The position numbers and the translations under genes are program-made. A stretch of DNA of 26,394 nucleotides from a virus. The DNA lies in the IMG/VR virus record IMGVR_UViG_3300020196_000205, positions 1 to 26,394 of that record, one strand, 5' to 3'. A model generated the notes under the pieces. The model was not told the origin of the DNA. It saw only the letters and a list, made by a program, of their open reading frames with translations, and did not search any database. Positions 6,861 through 20,457 of this stretch are shown one piece after another. Within the stretch, counting starts at the first letter, position 1; each line of letters starts with the position of its first letter.

Positions 6861-8708
6861 TTATCTACTGTTTGTAAATATAAAATCTTTTCCTGACACA
6901 CTTTCGCCAGAAGCAATTTTATCAGATATAATATTTACTTCTATATCCTGTTCTCTTATAAATGCTAATTGATTTCTAAGAGATATTACATCATAAGAAG
7001 CAGGCTCTACTGTAAAAGTTATTTTACCATTAATATCACCTTGTGATATATTGATGCTATCGATTGATATTTTACCTGTTGTGTAATTTACTGTACCGAT
7101 ATATGATGGTGTATAAATTTTAACATTTGCAGCAGTAAGATAAAATAATCTTAAATCGCCGATTGCGTTATCTTCAATGTAATATGTATCTACACTTCCT
7201 GCTATTGTAAATCCTGATGACGATAAAGAAATAGAAGCATTTTGTGTTGAAGTTGGTTTATAAATTGGATTATTTAATGAGAATGTATATTTTGTATTCG
7301 TATTAAATTGTGGTGTTAAAAGATACTTTAATTGAATTTTAGTAATGTTTGAAACAATGCTATTTTCACTTTTGTCAATTAAACTAGATAATGCTGACTC
7401 ACGAAATACAGCATCAAATTTATTTAAGTTGCCTGTGTTATAAGCTTTTATTGTATCAACCACAATGCTTTTTATAGTGTCAGCACTACGAGTTGTTAAT
7501 TTTGGATTGTAATATACATTTGAATTTACTGATATGTATAGTATGTCAGGATCAACTATTTCTGGAATAATACTTACTAAACTTTTTCCTTTTATAATAT
7601 CTTTAATAATAATTTGTTTAGTGCTTTGTGTTAATGTATCTCCTGTTTTTGGTTTAATACAAATATATGCTTTTCCATAAATTGGTGGATCATTTTCTTC
7701 ACCACCCCAAACTGAAATAGCATCAACGTTATTATAAAATTTTGGAATAATTACTTTGTAGTCATCTGCAGTCACTGCTCTATTTTGTGCTGTAAAACTT
7801 TTTGGAGCATTAAATTTAATACTATCAATTGTTTCAGGTATAGAACCACCAGCTGCAATTGCTTTTGTCACAATTGATACGTTGGCTGTATTTGTAAATG
7901 CGTTTCCTGTGTATGTGAAAGTAGCTGTACCATTTGGTTCTGATTCATTGCAAACAAAATAATCTATAAGAATATTTGCACCATTTGCTGGAGCAAATCC
8001 TAAAAGACCATCACCAAAAGAAATAACATAATTACCATCATCATTTTCTTTTAAAAAATAAACACGTGATACTGGAGTTAATGTAGAGAAATTATCAGCA
8101 AGATTATATACTGTGTTTGCTGCTGATCCTGCTACCTCTTGAACATTGATTTTAATTGTTGAAGTATCTACTTTAGCATTTGGAATTACATAAGATCCAT
8201 TCGTGACCATTGAATATGTTTTTTGTAATAATCTTCCTTCAATTATAGGAACATTTAAAAATGAATATGTATTTGTGATAGAACGAGAAACAGTGGTTGT
8301 ACTATCAGTTAAAAAATTAAAATTACTTCCACTAAAATTTGAACTGAATGAAGTTCCTGCTGGTATAGTAAGAGTTGTTGGATTTCCTGATACGTTCGAT
8401 ATAACAAGATCAATAAGTGCTTTTGAAGCAATACTTGATGATGGAGTATATCCTAATGATTTAGCAAGACTTACAACTGATGAACGTTTTACAGCACTAT
8501 CTAAAAACATTTCATTAACACTTAAATTATAATACAAAGCATTATAATGTGTGTTGTAAGCAAGTACATCTAACAAGATTGAAAGACCAGATCCTTCAAA
8601 ATTGTAATCGCTAAATGCATTTTGTGCTTTTAAATATGTCTTTATATTCTTTTTTATTTCATCAAAATCTAATTCAGTGACTTTAATGTTTCTACTTGTT
8701 TCAGCCAT
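6861..8708 (-). CDS. 6: Baseplate wedge protein gp6
   Basis: A 615-residue protein with the characteristic gp6 N terminus: a TELDFDEIKKNIKTYLKAQ block followed by the conserved SGLSILLDVLAYNTHYNA segment (about residues 42-59) and FLDSAVKRSSVVSLAKSLGY. gp6 belongs to the baseplate J-like family; in T4 it forms the continuous inner ring of the baseplate together with gp25 and gp53. Length is close to T4 gp6 (660 aa). Its ATG overlaps the gp25 stop as TAATG, so gp25 and gp6 are translationally coupled, matching their tight structural association. No odd truncation was seen. Confidence 0.93.
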   Translation of the reverse strand: MAETSRNIKVTELDFDEIKKNIKTYLKAQNAFSDYNFEGSGLSILLDVLAYNTHYNALYYNLSVNEMFLDSAVKRSSVVSLAKSLGYTPSSSIASKALIDLVISNVSGNPTTLTIPAGTSFSSNFSGSNFNFLTDSTTTVSRSITNTYSFLNVPIIEGRLLQKTYSMVTNGSYVIPNAKVDTSTIKINVQEVAGSAANTVYNLADNFSTLTPVSRVYFLKENDDGNYVISFGDGLLGFAPANGANILIDYFVCNESEPNGTATFTYTGNAFTNTANVSIVTKAIAAGGSIPETIDSIKFNAPKSFTAQNRAVTADDYKVIIPKFYNNVDAISVWGGEENDPPIYGKAYICIKPKTGDTLTQSTKQIIIKDIIKGKSLVSIIPEIVDPDILYISVNSNVYYNPKLTTRSADTIKSIVVDTIKAYNTGNLNKFDAVFRESALSSLIDKSENSIVSNITKIQLKYLLTPQFNTNTKYTFSLNNPIYKPTSTQNASISLSSSGFTIAGSVDTYYIEDNAIGDLRLFYLTAANVKIYTPSYIGTVNYTTGKISIDSINISQGDINGKITFTVEPASYDVISLRNQLAFIREQDIEVNIISDKIASGESVSGKDFIFTNSR

Positions 8709-9100
8709 TATCGTGTTCTTTCGAGTGTTAAAGTTAATTCTATTGGTGTAGCTGTATTAATAATTTTAAATACAATACGAATATCTACATAATTTTCGTC
8801 TGGACGAACCAATACAAACACATCAACTAATAATACTCTTGGTTCGTAATTTCTTATAACATCAACTATACTTCTTTTAATTACAGCTGTAGCCATTTCA
8901 GTGACTGGTTCAAAAAGCATTCCTCTTACTTGACAACCGATTTCACTATGAAAAGGTCTTTCAAAATTTTTAGTAAGTATTAGGTTTCGAACACTTTGTT
9001 TAATCGCTTGCTCGTCATATTTTATAGCTACATCCTTATTTACAGGGTGTGCTGTAAAGTTTAAATCTAAATCTGCGAATGTACGAGTATTAGTTGGCAT
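8708..9100 (-). CDS. 25: Baseplate wedge protein gp25 (GPW/gp25 family)
   Basis: A 130-residue protein, the usual length for gp25 (132 aa in T4). Typical features are the N-terminal FADLDLNFTAHPVNKDVA block, the NLILTKNFERPFHSEIGC segment (about residues 37-54; compare the family's L-T-x-x-GER-x-x-x-P-x-x-G) and a beta-rich C terminus ending in a LTLTLER strand. gp25 is the sheath-initiator-like wedge protein that interacts with gp6 and gp53 and primes sheath assembly. It lies immediately after the PAAR gene and overlaps gp6 by one base. Confidence 0.92.
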   Translation of the reverse strand: MPTNTRTFADLDLNFTAHPVNKDVAIKYDEQAIKQSVRNLILTKNFERPFHSEIGCQVRGMLFEPVTEMATAVIKRSIVDVIRNYEPRVLLVDVFVLVRPDENYVDIRIVFKIINTATPIELTLTLERTR

Positions 9101-9416: not shown

Positions 9417-12374
9417 TTATCCAACCTCTGGTATTAAAGAGAAATCATCTGATACTTTTAAATGATCTCTCATAGTAAATGTTTCGAATCTATTTCCTGA
9501 ATATTTCCATGAACAATGCAACCAAACTGATTTTTTACCTGCATACGATAACACTATACGATCAAATCCATAAGGTAAAGATAAAGCTAAATCTATTGCT
9601 GCTTGATAATGTTGAGCACGATTCCAGCTTGAAAATATAATATCAACAGCTTCACCTGTATAATGTTGAGATGTTTCAGGAGATCCTGCTTGAATTTGGT
9701 TATTTCTATATCCATTTATAATTAAAACGTTTTTGAATAAATCTTTCATTGGTTCAATAAGATATGTTGCCATTCCTTTTAAATTACAAACTATTTGTTT
9801 TGGTTCTACTCCCATTTGTGAAATAATAGGAATACCACCATTTCGATTTAATGCTCCTAATTGAATACGAGCAGATAATTGTAAGCTTGGTTCATAGGTA
9901 GATAATCCATAAATGTATTCACATTTTTGTTCTGCTGCTGCAATATCTGATTTAACTGTTGGTGTAGTTTTAACAGAAACATCACCTAAATCTAAATTCT
10001 TACGAATATATAAACCACGTTGTACTTGACGTTCACGATGAGTTTGAGCATCTCCTTCGTCTGGAACTTCATACACAAAGAATTCTCTTGCTGATCTTGA
10101 ATTGACTTGTAGTTCAGGTATTACTGGCATTTGAGTATCAATTATTTCATTTGATGTTAATGCTAATCCTGATGGTGTAAAGCCATTTGCTATATCAACT
10201 TTACTACCATCTAATTCTAAAACTTGTGCTGCACCTAATGTAGCCATTCCTTTTGATTCCATTCTTATTTGTGATGCAATTAATCTAAATTCACCACCTA
10301 CATTTAAATTCATGTCTCCAGCAACTGTCACTTTACAATCATTATTAATTACAACTTCTCCTGGACCATCTATTCTTATTTTTGCTCCAGCTTGAAGCAC
10401 AGCATTTAATTCACCATATACTGTTAAATTTTTTGTTCCACCAACTAATTCATAAGTGTTTCTTTCACTAATTGAATAACGATCTCCTACTACACGATCA
10501 GTTAATGTACCATTATGATCCCATTCCATCCAACTACCACGTTTATGGAATATATTAATTCGTTCAGCATTTGGTGTATCATCTAATTCGAATACATGTC
10601 CTCGTTCAGTTTCAACAACTTTATTAAAAGGATATTCAGCATTGTAAGGTATTTCACACTGATCCCATGTGTCATAATTAAATCTTTCAATTCCTAATGC
10701 TCTTGCTGATTCTTTTACATAGACTGAAGTTTTATCTATATTCTCATGACGTGATAATCTAGATGTGTCTGGCTCATTTACATATTCTAAGTATCCTGAA
10801 GCAACACCAAAAGATCCTGATGCTGGATTTGAAACAAGACCAGCATTACCAAATTCACCATTATCAGAAATTGGCTTTACATATGCAGTGTTCTCATCAA
10901 ATAATGTTCCTCCTAAATTTGGCACTCCAACTGAAGTAAATTTTTTTGCTGCTGCTGCACGTCTTGCTTTTTTAGTTGATGATTTACCACCAAATAATTT
11001 TCCACCAATACCACCAAGGTTAAATCCACCAAATCCTCCGAGTAAATTTGATATATTACCTGATGTTATATTTGATATAGCAGAGGAGATGTTCCCACTC
11101 ACACCACCTAATATATTTGTCACTGAAGCACCAATATTTGTCGTGTTTAAAACATTTGATATATTTGCGATACCAGTTGAACTATTTAAAATATTTCCAA
11201 TACCTGAATTAGATAATACGTTTGTCACATTTGATAAAGAACCATCTGCTATGTTGGTTAAATTTGAAGTTATAGATTGAGCACTACCACCCAAATTATT
11301 TAAAAGGTTTCCTGAAATATTTTGAATTGAACCTGTAATTGTTCCAGTTAAATCTGTTCCTGATGTTAAGTTAGAAAATAATTCTTTTCCTGTTGTAATA
11401 GAAGAACCCAAAGATCCTGATGTGACACCACCTAATATATTATCAAAACTCTTTTCACTCATTATTCCTTGAATAGCACCTGCTGCTCCTTGATAGTCTA
11501 ATGAATTCATTAACTTGGGAATAGAAGAATTAGCAAAATTTTTTACACCAATATCAGATGCAACACTTACTAATGAATCAAACATTTCTTGTGACACTGG
11601 TGCTCTTACAACACTTGTAAGTTTATCAGCTACATCTGTTTGTAAATAGTTTTTAAATTCAGTTTGTGCTGTAGCTATATCTATACTTCCAGGAAATGAT
11701 GTTGTGACTGCTTTTCCTTGAAATGTATCTTGACCATAACCGATTACAGTTTTAACTACATCACCAGCAGCATTTGTAATTTGTACAGCATCTGCTGTGA
11801 ATGGTGTGTTTGCTATAATATCTTTTACTGTAGTGTCTGTCACAGAGAAAGTAGAAAGTGGTCTTGCTTTTTCTATCTCTAAATCTCCTTTTAATAAAGC
11901 TTTAGAATCTTCAGATACTTGTGCTGCTGTTTGTACATTGCCACCACTTTTTGTAGCTACAGCATTAATTATGTTTACATTTGAATCTATTTTACATGAT
12001 ACAAGTTTTGATACACCATCAGAACCAATTTTTACTGCTGTGTTTGCATTTCCTTTTCTATCAGATGGTTTAAGAACTAAAGAATTATTTTGATTTTGTG
12101 GAACACCTGCAATTGTACCAAGTATGACTGGAGTTTGATCATCTTTATCAGTGAATGTGACAAGAACTATACTTCCTAAAACTATTCCTGTTGGCGATAC
12201 ACCAATACCAGCACTTGCTGCTGAATTGACTGGTGATATAGGCATAGCCCATGGTAAATCTATTGTAGGAAGTATTGCAGGGTTTTCATCATGAACACCC
12301 ATTACTCTCACTTGACATCTACCAAGTTTTAAAGGATCGTTTCTGTTTTCAACTTTACCAATAAATAATTTCAT
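9417..12374 (-). CDS. 5: Central spike/baseplate hub protein gp5 with degenerate lysozyme and C-terminal M15 peptidase
   Basis: A 985-residue trimer-forming spike protein. Residues 1-95 are the gp5 OB-fold (opens KLFIGKVENRNDPLKLGRCQ). Residues 178-305 align with the T4-type lysozyme domain at its expected place: VIGYGQ (210-215) and FDSLVSVASDIG (265-276) are recognisable, but the catalytic Glu and Asp are not. A Ser/Asn/Gly-rich repetitive stretch covers 315-465 and ends in a basic patch (KKARRAAAAKK, 468-478). Residues 590-730 look like the beta-helix spike. Residues 860-960 carry the M15 zinc-peptidase motif SxHxxGxAxD (S902, H904, G907, A909, D911) and a distal WLH (H953). The probable role is piercing the envelope and cutting peptide cross-links in peptidoglycan during injection. 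It starts as TAATG on the gp27-like stop. Confidence 0.88.
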   Translation of the reverse strand: MKLFIGKVENRNDPLKLGRCQVRVMGVHDENPAILPTIDLPWAMPISPVNSAASAGIGVSPTGIVLGSIVLVTFTDKDDQTPVILGTIAGVPQNQNNSLVLKPSDRKGNANTAVKIGSDGVSKLVSCKIDSNVNIINAVATKSGGNVQTAAQVSEDSKALLKGDLEIEKARPLSTFSVTDTTVKDIIANTPFTADAVQITNAAGDVVKTVIGYGQDTFQGKAVTTSFPGSIDIATAQTEFKNYLQTDVADKLTSVVRAPVSQEMFDSLVSVASDIGVKNFANSSIPKLMNSLDYQGAAGAIQGIMSEKSFDNILGGVTSGSLGSSITTGKELFSNLTSGTDLTGTITGSIQNISGNLLNNLGGSAQSITSNLTNIADGSLSNVTNVLSNSGIGNILNSSTGIANISNVLNTTNIGASVTNILGGVSGNISSAISNITSGNISNLLGGFGGFNLGGIGGKLFGGKSSTKKARRAAAAKKFTSVGVPNLGGTLFDENTAYVKPISDNGEFGNAGLVSNPASGSFGVASGYLEYVNEPDTSRLSRHENIDKTSVYVKESARALGIERFNYDTWDQCEIPYNAEYPFNKVVETERGHVFELDDTPNAERINIFHKRGSWMEWDHNGTLTDRVVGDRYSISERNTYELVGGTKNLTVYGELNAVLQAGAKIRIDGPGEVVINNDCKVTVAGDMNLNVGGEFRLIASQIRMESKGMATLGAAQVLELDGSKVDIANGFTPSGLALTSNEIIDTQMPVIPELQVNSRSAREFFVYEVPDEGDAQTHRERQVQRGLYIRKNLDLGDVSVKTTPTVKSDIAAAEQKCEYIYGLSTYEPSLQLSARIQLGALNRNGGIPIISQMGVEPKQIVCNLKGMATYLIEPMKDLFKNVLIINGYRNNQIQAGSPETSQHYTGEAVDIIFSSWNRAQHYQAAIDLALSLPYGFDRIVLSYAGKKSVWLHCSWKYSGNRFETFTMRDHLKVSDDFSLIPEVG

Positions 12375-18702: not shown

Positions 18703-20457
18703 ATGGTAGTACAAGCATTCGGAGGACTCGTAGCAAGAACAGCAGCACAAGGTGCTGGTGCATCAGTAAGAACAGTTGGTGCTGGTAGTGCTGTGAGAGG
18801 TGCTACAAATATTTCATCAACAGTTAGTGGTGTAGCTGGAAGTACAGTTGGTCAGGGAAGAAGTGGAAAATCTTCTATACTTGATTCAAAAGGGAATCCA
18901 ATAATTACTCCAGCCAAAACAGGTGTCGCTCCTGCAGGTGGTGGAGCATCTTTAGAACAGAGTAGAGAAAGTAATGCTCTTCAAGATAGAATGATTAATT
19001 TACTTGAAGCAATTGAAGCTAATACTTCAGGTAAAGGACAAGATGTAGCTTCAACGAAACCTCAACAAACATTAATGGAAAGTGTAATGTCGACACTTGG
19101 TGGCATGATATCAGGAATAGGAGGATTGCTTACTGGGCTTGGAATTTTTAAGGGATTTAAAGATGCTGCAGCTGCAAAAGAAAGAGGAGAAAGTGAATTT
19201 GGTATATTTGCTGAATTTGTTAAAGGTACAATCAAAGGAATATTAAATATTCCATTCAACATAGTTGATAATATTTTAAATTTATTTGATATAGACATTC
19301 CTGATAATATGGGTGATTTAATTGTTGAGGGTGCAATAAAAATGGTTAAAGATCTTGCTGATTATATTAAAAATTTACCTGATCGTATTATGAAAGCAAT
19401 AACAGGTATGATTGAAAATATTGGAATACCAGAGTTTAAAATATTTGGAAAATCATTCGGTCCTTATTATCCTTTCCGTGGAGATGGAGAAGTAAAACAA
19501 GAAGATACACAAGGTCCACCTCAAACAACTACAACTAAAACAGTAATGCCTGAAGCTAAAAACAAAGAGGGCATATCAGACGATTTAAATATAAAAGAAT
19601 TTGGTCCTGATGCAAAAGTCACTGTATCAGGTGGAGAAACAAAAACATATAAAGCAAAACCTTTTAATAAAGAAGCTTATAAAGCAGCTGAAGAAAAACT
19701 GAAATATCAAGAACTTCAAGGAACAACATCATTTGTAAAAGATCCAGTCACAGGTGAAGGAGCAACAATAAAACAAACTTCAAAATCTATGACAAAGCAA
19801 CAAGCAATGGAATTTTTAGCCAACAATAGTGCAAGATACGGATCAATGATTGACCAAATTAATGAATATATTAGATTTGCTTTTCAAGATGGTAAACCAA
19901 TGCCAAATATTAATGAATTACCATTTATGAGACCAGGATCAATGCCACGAGCAAGCAAGGGAGAGGAAGAAAAACAAAAAATGTTTATAGATGCTGTTCA
20001 TACAGTATATCCTGAATTAATTCAAAAATTATATCAATCAAAAACAAAAGATGGTAAGTTCAATACTTCAGATTTACTTAGAGATTTAAATGATCCAGAA
20101 GGTCAGGCAGATTTGCAAAAAGCTGGAGCAGGTTATACAGAAGCAGATAAAAGTACAGTTGCTCTTGATTCTTTTAATCCAATATTTAATGAGGTAAAGG
20201 GTGTAGGATTAAATGCAAGAATAAAAAACAGAGAATTAGAAAAAGCAAACGAATCTCAGAGTGGAAATGCTGTAATGAATAGTTCTGCTGCTGCCGAAGC
20301 TGCAAAATCTAAAGAGTCGAGTAATGTTGTAATCAATGCTCCATCTTCAACTGTAAATGCACCAAAATCATCGAATATGGTAATGCCAGAAAATATAAGA
20401 AATAATGAAACGAGTATGTCTCGATATATAGATAGTCTGAGTGGTGTAAATATTTAA
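18703..20457 (+). CDS. Probable tape-measure protein (gp29-like)
   Basis: A 584-residue protein, almost the length of T4 gp29 (590 aa), immediately after the chaperone-like pair. The N terminus is Gly/Ala/Ser/Thr-rich, residues 120-175 are hydrophobic and Gly-rich (MISGIGGLLTGLGIF), and 175-245 form amphipathic helices with hydrophobic runs (GILNIPFNIVDNILNLFDID), as in tape measures that insert into the membrane. The rest is charged and helical (330-520). The C terminus has a VVINAPSSTVNAPKSSNMV-type repeat and ends in MSRYIDSLSGVN. No enzymatic motif is visible. The assignment is from order and composition, and a different internal tail protein is possible. Arginine is mostly AGA, as in the other virion genes. 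Confidence 0.6.
   Translation: MVVQAFGGLVARTAAQGAGASVRTVGAGSAVRGATNISSTVSGVAGSTVGQGRSGKSSILDSKGNPIITPAKTGVAPAGGGASLEQSRESNALQDRMINLLEAIEANTSGKGQDVASTKPQQTLMESVMSTLGGMISGIGGLLTGLGIFKGFKDAAAAKERGESEFGIFAEFVKGTIKGILNIPFNIVDNILNLFDIDIPDNMGDLIVEGAIKMVKDLADYIKNLPDRIMKAITGMIENIGIPEFKIFGKSFGPYYPFRGDGEVKQEDTQGPPQTTTTKTVMPEAKNKEGISDDLNIKEFGPDAKVTVSGGETKTYKAKPFNKEAYKAAEEKLKYQELQGTTSFVKDPVTGEGATIKQTSKSMTKQQAMEFLANNSARYGSMIDQINEYIRFAFQDGKPMPNINELPFMRPGSMPRASKGEEEKQKMFIDAVHTVYPELIQKLYQSKTKDGKFNTSDLLRDLNDPEGQADLQKAGAGYTEADKSTVALDSFNPIFNEVKGVGLNARIKNRELEKANESQSGNAVMNSSAAAEAAKSKESSNVVINAPSSTVNAPKSSNMVMPENIRNNETSMSRYIDSLSGVNI

Follow-up and report, generated by a model that had tools for sequence, protein, structure and literature searches.

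In the window, a virus record of 26,394 bases with a GC content of 32%, one gene on the minus strand encodes a protein that its sequence marks as gp5, the central spike of a T4-type phage, and two domains of this spike have each lost a Glu that relatives carry: a GH24-fold domain lying after the OB fold and ahead of the beta-helix, and a C-terminal zinc domain of the M15 type. Sequence comparison gives good support to the former being a dead GH24 domain on an inherited dual-enzyme spike. The M15 domain of the clade to which the window belongs may be disabled as well, which is the likelier reading. An earlier sequence-only reading had noticed a GH24 fold without catalytic acids together with a C-terminal M15 zinc motif, and that observation as a whole holds.

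Domain layout and genomic setting of the spike

The spike contains both the N-terminal OB domain and the gp5-type beta-helix that mark T4-type gp5 proteins (Table 1). Its gene is flanked by a tail protein in the gp27 position on one side and by a separate PAAR protein on the other, beyond which come gp25 and gp6. In a comparison of gp6, Methylophilales phage Melnitz (40.6% identity) and Pelagibacter phage HTVC008M (41.3%) come closest among named phages. The linker contains a basic KKARRAAAAKKF stretch. Elsewhere in the window, a 584-aa protein with no PHROG match (18703-20457) occupies the place where a tape measure is expected.

Table 1. Positions of the spike gene, its domains and key residues, and the neighbouring tail genes in the window.
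Feature	Position	Strand	Basis and remarks
gp5-type baseplate spike	9417..12374	-	985 aa; OB fold, GH24-fold pseudo-lysozyme, low-complexity linker, beta-helix, C-terminal M15
OB domain, residues 1-98	12081..12374	-	Pfam Gp5_OB 6.3e-14; T4 gp5 match
GH24-fold domain without catalytic residues, residues ~170-305	11460..11867	-	Pfam 3.9e-9; AF2 and PDB Z 16.4; alignment of relatives
Thr190 at the catalytic Glu position (T4 gp5 Glu184)	11805..11807	-	alignment of relatives; T4 residue from PMC7650644
Gly/Ser/Asn-rich linker, residues 306-512	10839..11459	-	largely missing from relative L054
beta-helix region, residues ~565-735	10170..10682	-	phmmer to T4 gp5 and 9f4a over 571-710; dedicated helix HMM
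C-terminal M15-type zinc domain, residues ~815-985	9420..9932	-	phrog_894 2.8e-10; AF2 pLDDT 93.8; 1lbu Z 10.7
Glu900 (acid)	9675..9677	-	acid in 13/13 clade sequences, 2/76 others
SQHYTGEAVD, residues 902-911, predicted zinc ligands H904 and D911	9642..9671	-	columns invariant in 49-domain alignment
Ser943, where 76/76 non-clade relatives carry Glu	9546..9548	-	alignment of M15 sequences
H953, third predicted zinc ligand; WLH is residues 951-953	9516..9518	-	invariant column
PAAR tip protein, separate, 100 aa	9112..9414	-	phrog_281 2.1e-13
tail protein in gp27 hub position, 424 aa	12374..13648	-	phrog_350 2.1e-80; gp27 name inferred from gene order
gp25 baseplate wedge	8708..9100	-	profile matches (Pfam, PHROG)
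gp6 baseplate wedge	6861..8708	-	profile matches (Pfam, PHROG)

A GH24 fold without its catalytic acids

Residues 178-305 had been taken for a T4 lysozyme domain from their position and from the segments VIGYGQ (residues 210-215) and FDSLVSVASDIG (residues 265-276), and profile and structure comparisons bear this out. The Pfam Phage_lysozyme match (E 3.9e-9) covers residues 208-302 and enters the profile only at position 17, leaving its Glu-bearing N-terminal part unmatched. Modelled with AF2, residues 155-345 (mean pLDDT 77, with low ends) superpose on phage endolysins with Z values reaching 16.4, the value for AbLys1 (rmsd 2.7 over 148 residues), and on T4 lysozymes with Z ~10.5-11. The catalytic residues of T4 gp5 are given as Glu184, Asp193 and Thr199 (PMC7650644), and L080, a relative whose site is intact, can be aligned to solved GH24 lysozymes across the Glu and the Asp. 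Aligned with such intact-site relatives, the window spike has the fold with Thr190 in place of Glu, Asn201 in place of Asp and Val210 at the position of the catalytic Thr, in agreement with the claim that neither Glu nor Asp stands at the catalytic places; the Asp position is still Asp in several sisters. That the old domain is kept as a fold, as had been proposed, accords with the folded model and with purifying selection (dN/dS well below 1).

Relatives were sampled as the best 80 of 368 and the best 80 of 192, and all residue counts describe the sequences fetched rather than the whole collection; the GH24 and M15 counts were made regardless of whether an OB or helix domain was present and include relative L121, which has neither. 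A further set of GH24 relatives yielded nothing new beyond L121. Among 79 unique GH24 sequences, the Glu position holds Glu in 48 and Thr in 14, is deleted together with the catalytic hairpin in 11 (L076, L170 and nine of the L227-L256 group), falls in a frameshifted piece in 1 (L056) and is uncovered in 5. The 14 Thr sequences are the window clade, all 14 members of which lack the Glu. L056 enters this table as two pieces, one with and one without the Glu, and a break within the GH24 region leaves its gp5 (L056:3978-6555) in two reading frames, either genuinely or by assembly error. L197 keeps the Glu and differs at the Asp and Thr positions, possibly a further degenerate case.

An M15-type zinc domain with Ser in place of a conserved Glu

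The SxHxxGxAxD motif (H904, D911) and the WLH motif (H953) previously assigned to the M15 type are present and lie inside an M15-type fold, where they supply the HxxxxxxD pair and the later His. A chance motif was considered and set aside, as shuffling the protein 20,000 times gave SxHxxGxAxD in only 3 cases and the fold is confirmed. The domain is matched by phrog_894, and its match to Pfam Peptidase_M15_3 is weak (E 0.049) and falls below the curated cut-off (14.2 vs 23.2 bits). The AF2 model of residues 772-985, made from 49 sequences (mean pLDDT 93.8, pTM 0.90), finds the Zn DD-peptidase 1lbu as its best solved match (Foldseek 4.7e-4; Z 10.7, rmsd 3.1, 128 residues), and in a viral structure library its top matches include proteins named Gp5 N-terminal OB-fold. 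Hedgehog domains match it at Z ~6, which is in the common range, with borderline best profile E values of 0.0055 and 0.012. Invariant across the alignment of 49 M15 domains are Arg890, Ser902, His904, Gly907, Ala909, Asp911, Trp951 and His953.

A second acid is missing here, a loss overlooked in the sequence-only reading. The window has 'FDRIVLSY' (937-944), with Ser at 943, where relatives have, for example, 'YDQLILEY'. Position 943 is Glu in 76 of 92 unique M15 sequences, Ser in 12, Cys in 1 and uncovered in 3; the 13 cases of Ser or Cys come exclusively from the window clade and L054, and free-standing phage peptidases, as well as one MAG locus, are among the 76 with Glu. A profile of 11 M15 domains pairs the conserved Glu with the Glu in 'FDWVYYES' of Sonic hedgehog (Shh; E 0.012, borderline), and Ser943 thus stands in the window where an equivalent of Shh Glu177 is expected. 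In Shh, E177 is the base proposed to deprotonate the zinc water (PMC4102407, PMC6027127). By analogy, the Glu lost at 943 may have been a general base, a catalytic role suggested by the borderline profile match (E 0.012) and by conservation. The acid at 900 varies between Glu and Asp within the clade, and all 13 of its sequences retain Arg890, Ser902, the zinc ligands and Trp951.

Evolutionary history and selection

In a tree of 40 spikes built without the GH24 columns (L197 stands outside the loss count, and L018, which has no OB domain, is absent), loss of the GH24 active site amounts to four changes, namely one substitution in the window clade and three hairpin deletions. The M15 domain is retained in all four, and its Glu is intact in the hairpin-deleted lineages. 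L051, the sister to the window clade plus L054 (support 100/100), keeps both Glu residues. Because intact GH24 and M15 domains occur together in relatives and GH24 loss is repeated, the inherited state was likely a spike with two enzymes, from which the muramidase was lost later and more than once. A single origin of the hairpin-deleted forms is disfavoured when they are constrained to one clade (AU p 0.0105), as is forcing L076 and L086 alone together (p 0.0078), both values coming from a test whose group was defined after the first tree was viewed and from phage genes, which recombine.

The sequence-only reading held that lysozyme had been swapped for the peptidase. The tree contradicts this, as M15 sits behind an intact GH24 across the surrounding tree, sister L051 included, and this co-occurrence likewise speaks against M15 having been gained as a replacement. 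The alignment of related gp5 proteins that it had proposed does place the loss of the muramidase Glu on the branch to the window clade, but the peptidase was not gained there, being in all likelihood already ancestral. The muramidase Glu and the M15 Glu were both lost on this one long branch, which makes them a single event statistically. The suggested change of chemistry from glycan strands to peptide cross-links is doubtful in the window phage because the expected M15 base Glu is Ser943; it fits the hairpin-deleted relatives better.

Across six pairs within the window clade, dN/dS is 0.19-0.27 for the GH24-like domain and 0.18-0.24 for M15, against 0.03-0.15 (10 usable) and 0.04-0.09 (9 usable), respectively, across 11 pairs from GH24-intact lineages; these pairs are non-independent and carry signs of recombination, with dS differing between domains of one pair. 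Both domains seem to be under looser constraint in the clade than in the GH24-intact lineages, and neither is drifting freely.

Probable lysis genes in relatives

Each of the four long relatives (L184 and L181-L183; 119-160 kb) encodes a separate GH19 protein of 207-216 aa, likely the lysis enzyme or endolysin. In these four, gp5 is the sole match to PF08291, and Amidase_2, VanY and M15_4 find no match in any (0/4 each, E <= 0.001). In the L008 genome, gp5 is the sole match to PF00959.

Possible explanations

By a small measure, we favour the explanation that a dual-enzyme ancestor lost both Glu residues on the clade branch and kept the folds, leaving a spike that would act mainly mechanically. 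In the ancestral chain, the OB fold would have been followed by a GH24 muramidase, then by the beta-helix and lastly by an M15-type zinc peptidase. On the branch to the window clade, as the sequences show, the muramidase lost its catalytic Glu, and the peptidase, while keeping its zinc ligands, lost an otherwise invariant Glu; if that Glu was the general base, the peptidase would be dead or badly impaired. Both domains may persist for the shape of the spike, for a zinc-stabilised tip structure or for peptidoglycan binding, and the spike would cross the wall mainly by mechanical means, with lysis probably left to a separate GH19 protein; phage phiCD508 is a precedent for penetration without wall enzymes (PMC11948020). 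More tentatively, and with some doubt, we propose a T4-type spike that once had two enzymes and now has none, both catalytic acids lost on one branch and folds and zinc site kept, with a needle that may work by force, binding and metal-stabilised structure. Counting against a dead M15 domain are the zinc-site residues unchanged in the clade and a dN/dS well below 1, as in a working domain, as well as the acid that the 13 clade sequences acquired at 900 and a hedgehog fold match of only Z ~6.

Apart from the hedgehog match, these features would suit an M15 domain that is still active, with the acid at 900, in the loop before H904, standing in for Glu943 in a spike that cuts peptides only. Every one of the 13 clade sequences has Glu or Asp at 900, against 2 of the 76 others, the two acids exchange within the clade, the zinc-site residues are all kept and dN/dS is ~0.2. 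However, a single evolutionary event underlies the pairing of 943 with 900, which is not statistically independent; position 900 lies four residues before the zinc His and has no catalytic counterpart in the hedgehog descriptions of the papers cited above; and constraint on M15 is weaker than in Glu-bearing lineages. We consider such activity unlikely, though deserving of weight. Acquisition of the peptidase to replace the lysozyme, shifting from glycan to peptide cutting, would explain why the GH24 site is lost while an M15 fold is present, and the M15 Glu is intact in the three other inferred GH24 losses; yet M15 and intact GH24 occur together in the sister and across the tree, contradicting the order of events, M15 is also found beside GH19 (BUCT-ZZ01) or Phage_lysozyme2 (Cr30) middle domains, and the window M15 lacks the conserved Glu, which makes this very improbable. 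That the GH24-like domain is still an enzyme through other residues is scarcely credible: its fold is kept and some sisters keep the Asp, but the Glu is absent throughout the clade and in the window the Asp and Thr positions have changed too.

The spike bears on the question of whether contractile phages need to cut peptidoglycan for entry or merely push. One spike scaffold found with two intact enzymes, with one, or apparently with none forms a natural series for this question, and suggests that the two spike enzyme modules are separately dispensable and that M15 modules can be carried by the gp5 part of the tip or by its PAAR part.

Comparison with known systems

Sequence databases already contain gp5-OB proteins with M15-like ends, so the architecture itself is present there; an M15 domain in a T4-type gp5 is not described in the titles and abstracts of open-licence PMC papers under the terms searched. 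In Pv27, an M15-annotated protein is encoded near baseplate genes (PMC12063606). The gp5 of Melnitz is divided into an OB and VanY protein and a helix and M15 protein, and the split gp5 of Melnitz-3 (L029:4962-8005) gives two M15-type domains; Melnitz has no lysin-like genes other than gp67, according to its paper (PMC9004378). M15 sits on a PAAR protein, not on gp5, in Astolliot, Vibrio phages 207E48.1 and 1.244.A, Aura and PA5oct, and the loci of M15-PAAR fusions in five phages are L033:5934-6938, L034:5353-6339, L035:3446-4453, L036:3455-4477 and L037:3389-4378. No long gp5 was found in the regions near gp6 of HTVC008M, Mosig and P-HM2, and the gp5-OB gene in the Mosig region is interrupted by the end of the stretch. 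A scan of genome contigs gave one distant locus.

The window spike shares the OB fold, the GH24 domain and the beta-helix with T4 gp5, but lacks the catalytic residues, has a long linker and carries an extra C-terminal M15 domain that finds no match in the T4 chain. Its M15 domain shares the fold and the His/Asp/His zinc motif with the Zn DD-peptidase 1lbu (M15A) and with hedgehog domains, whereas it has Ser943 for the base Glu and belongs to a phage spike. A C-terminal M15 domain like that of the window, with its Glu present, also ends the gp5 of Pseudomonas phage pf16, which has no middle domain, of Caulobacter phage Cr30, whose middle domain is Phage_lysozyme2, and of Synechococcus phage BUCT-ZZ01, whose middle domain is GH19. 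The gp5 proteins of the L051, L058 and L080 type (IMG/VR contigs) share with the window spike the full order OB-GH24-helix-M15, yet in these both catalytic Glu residues are present.
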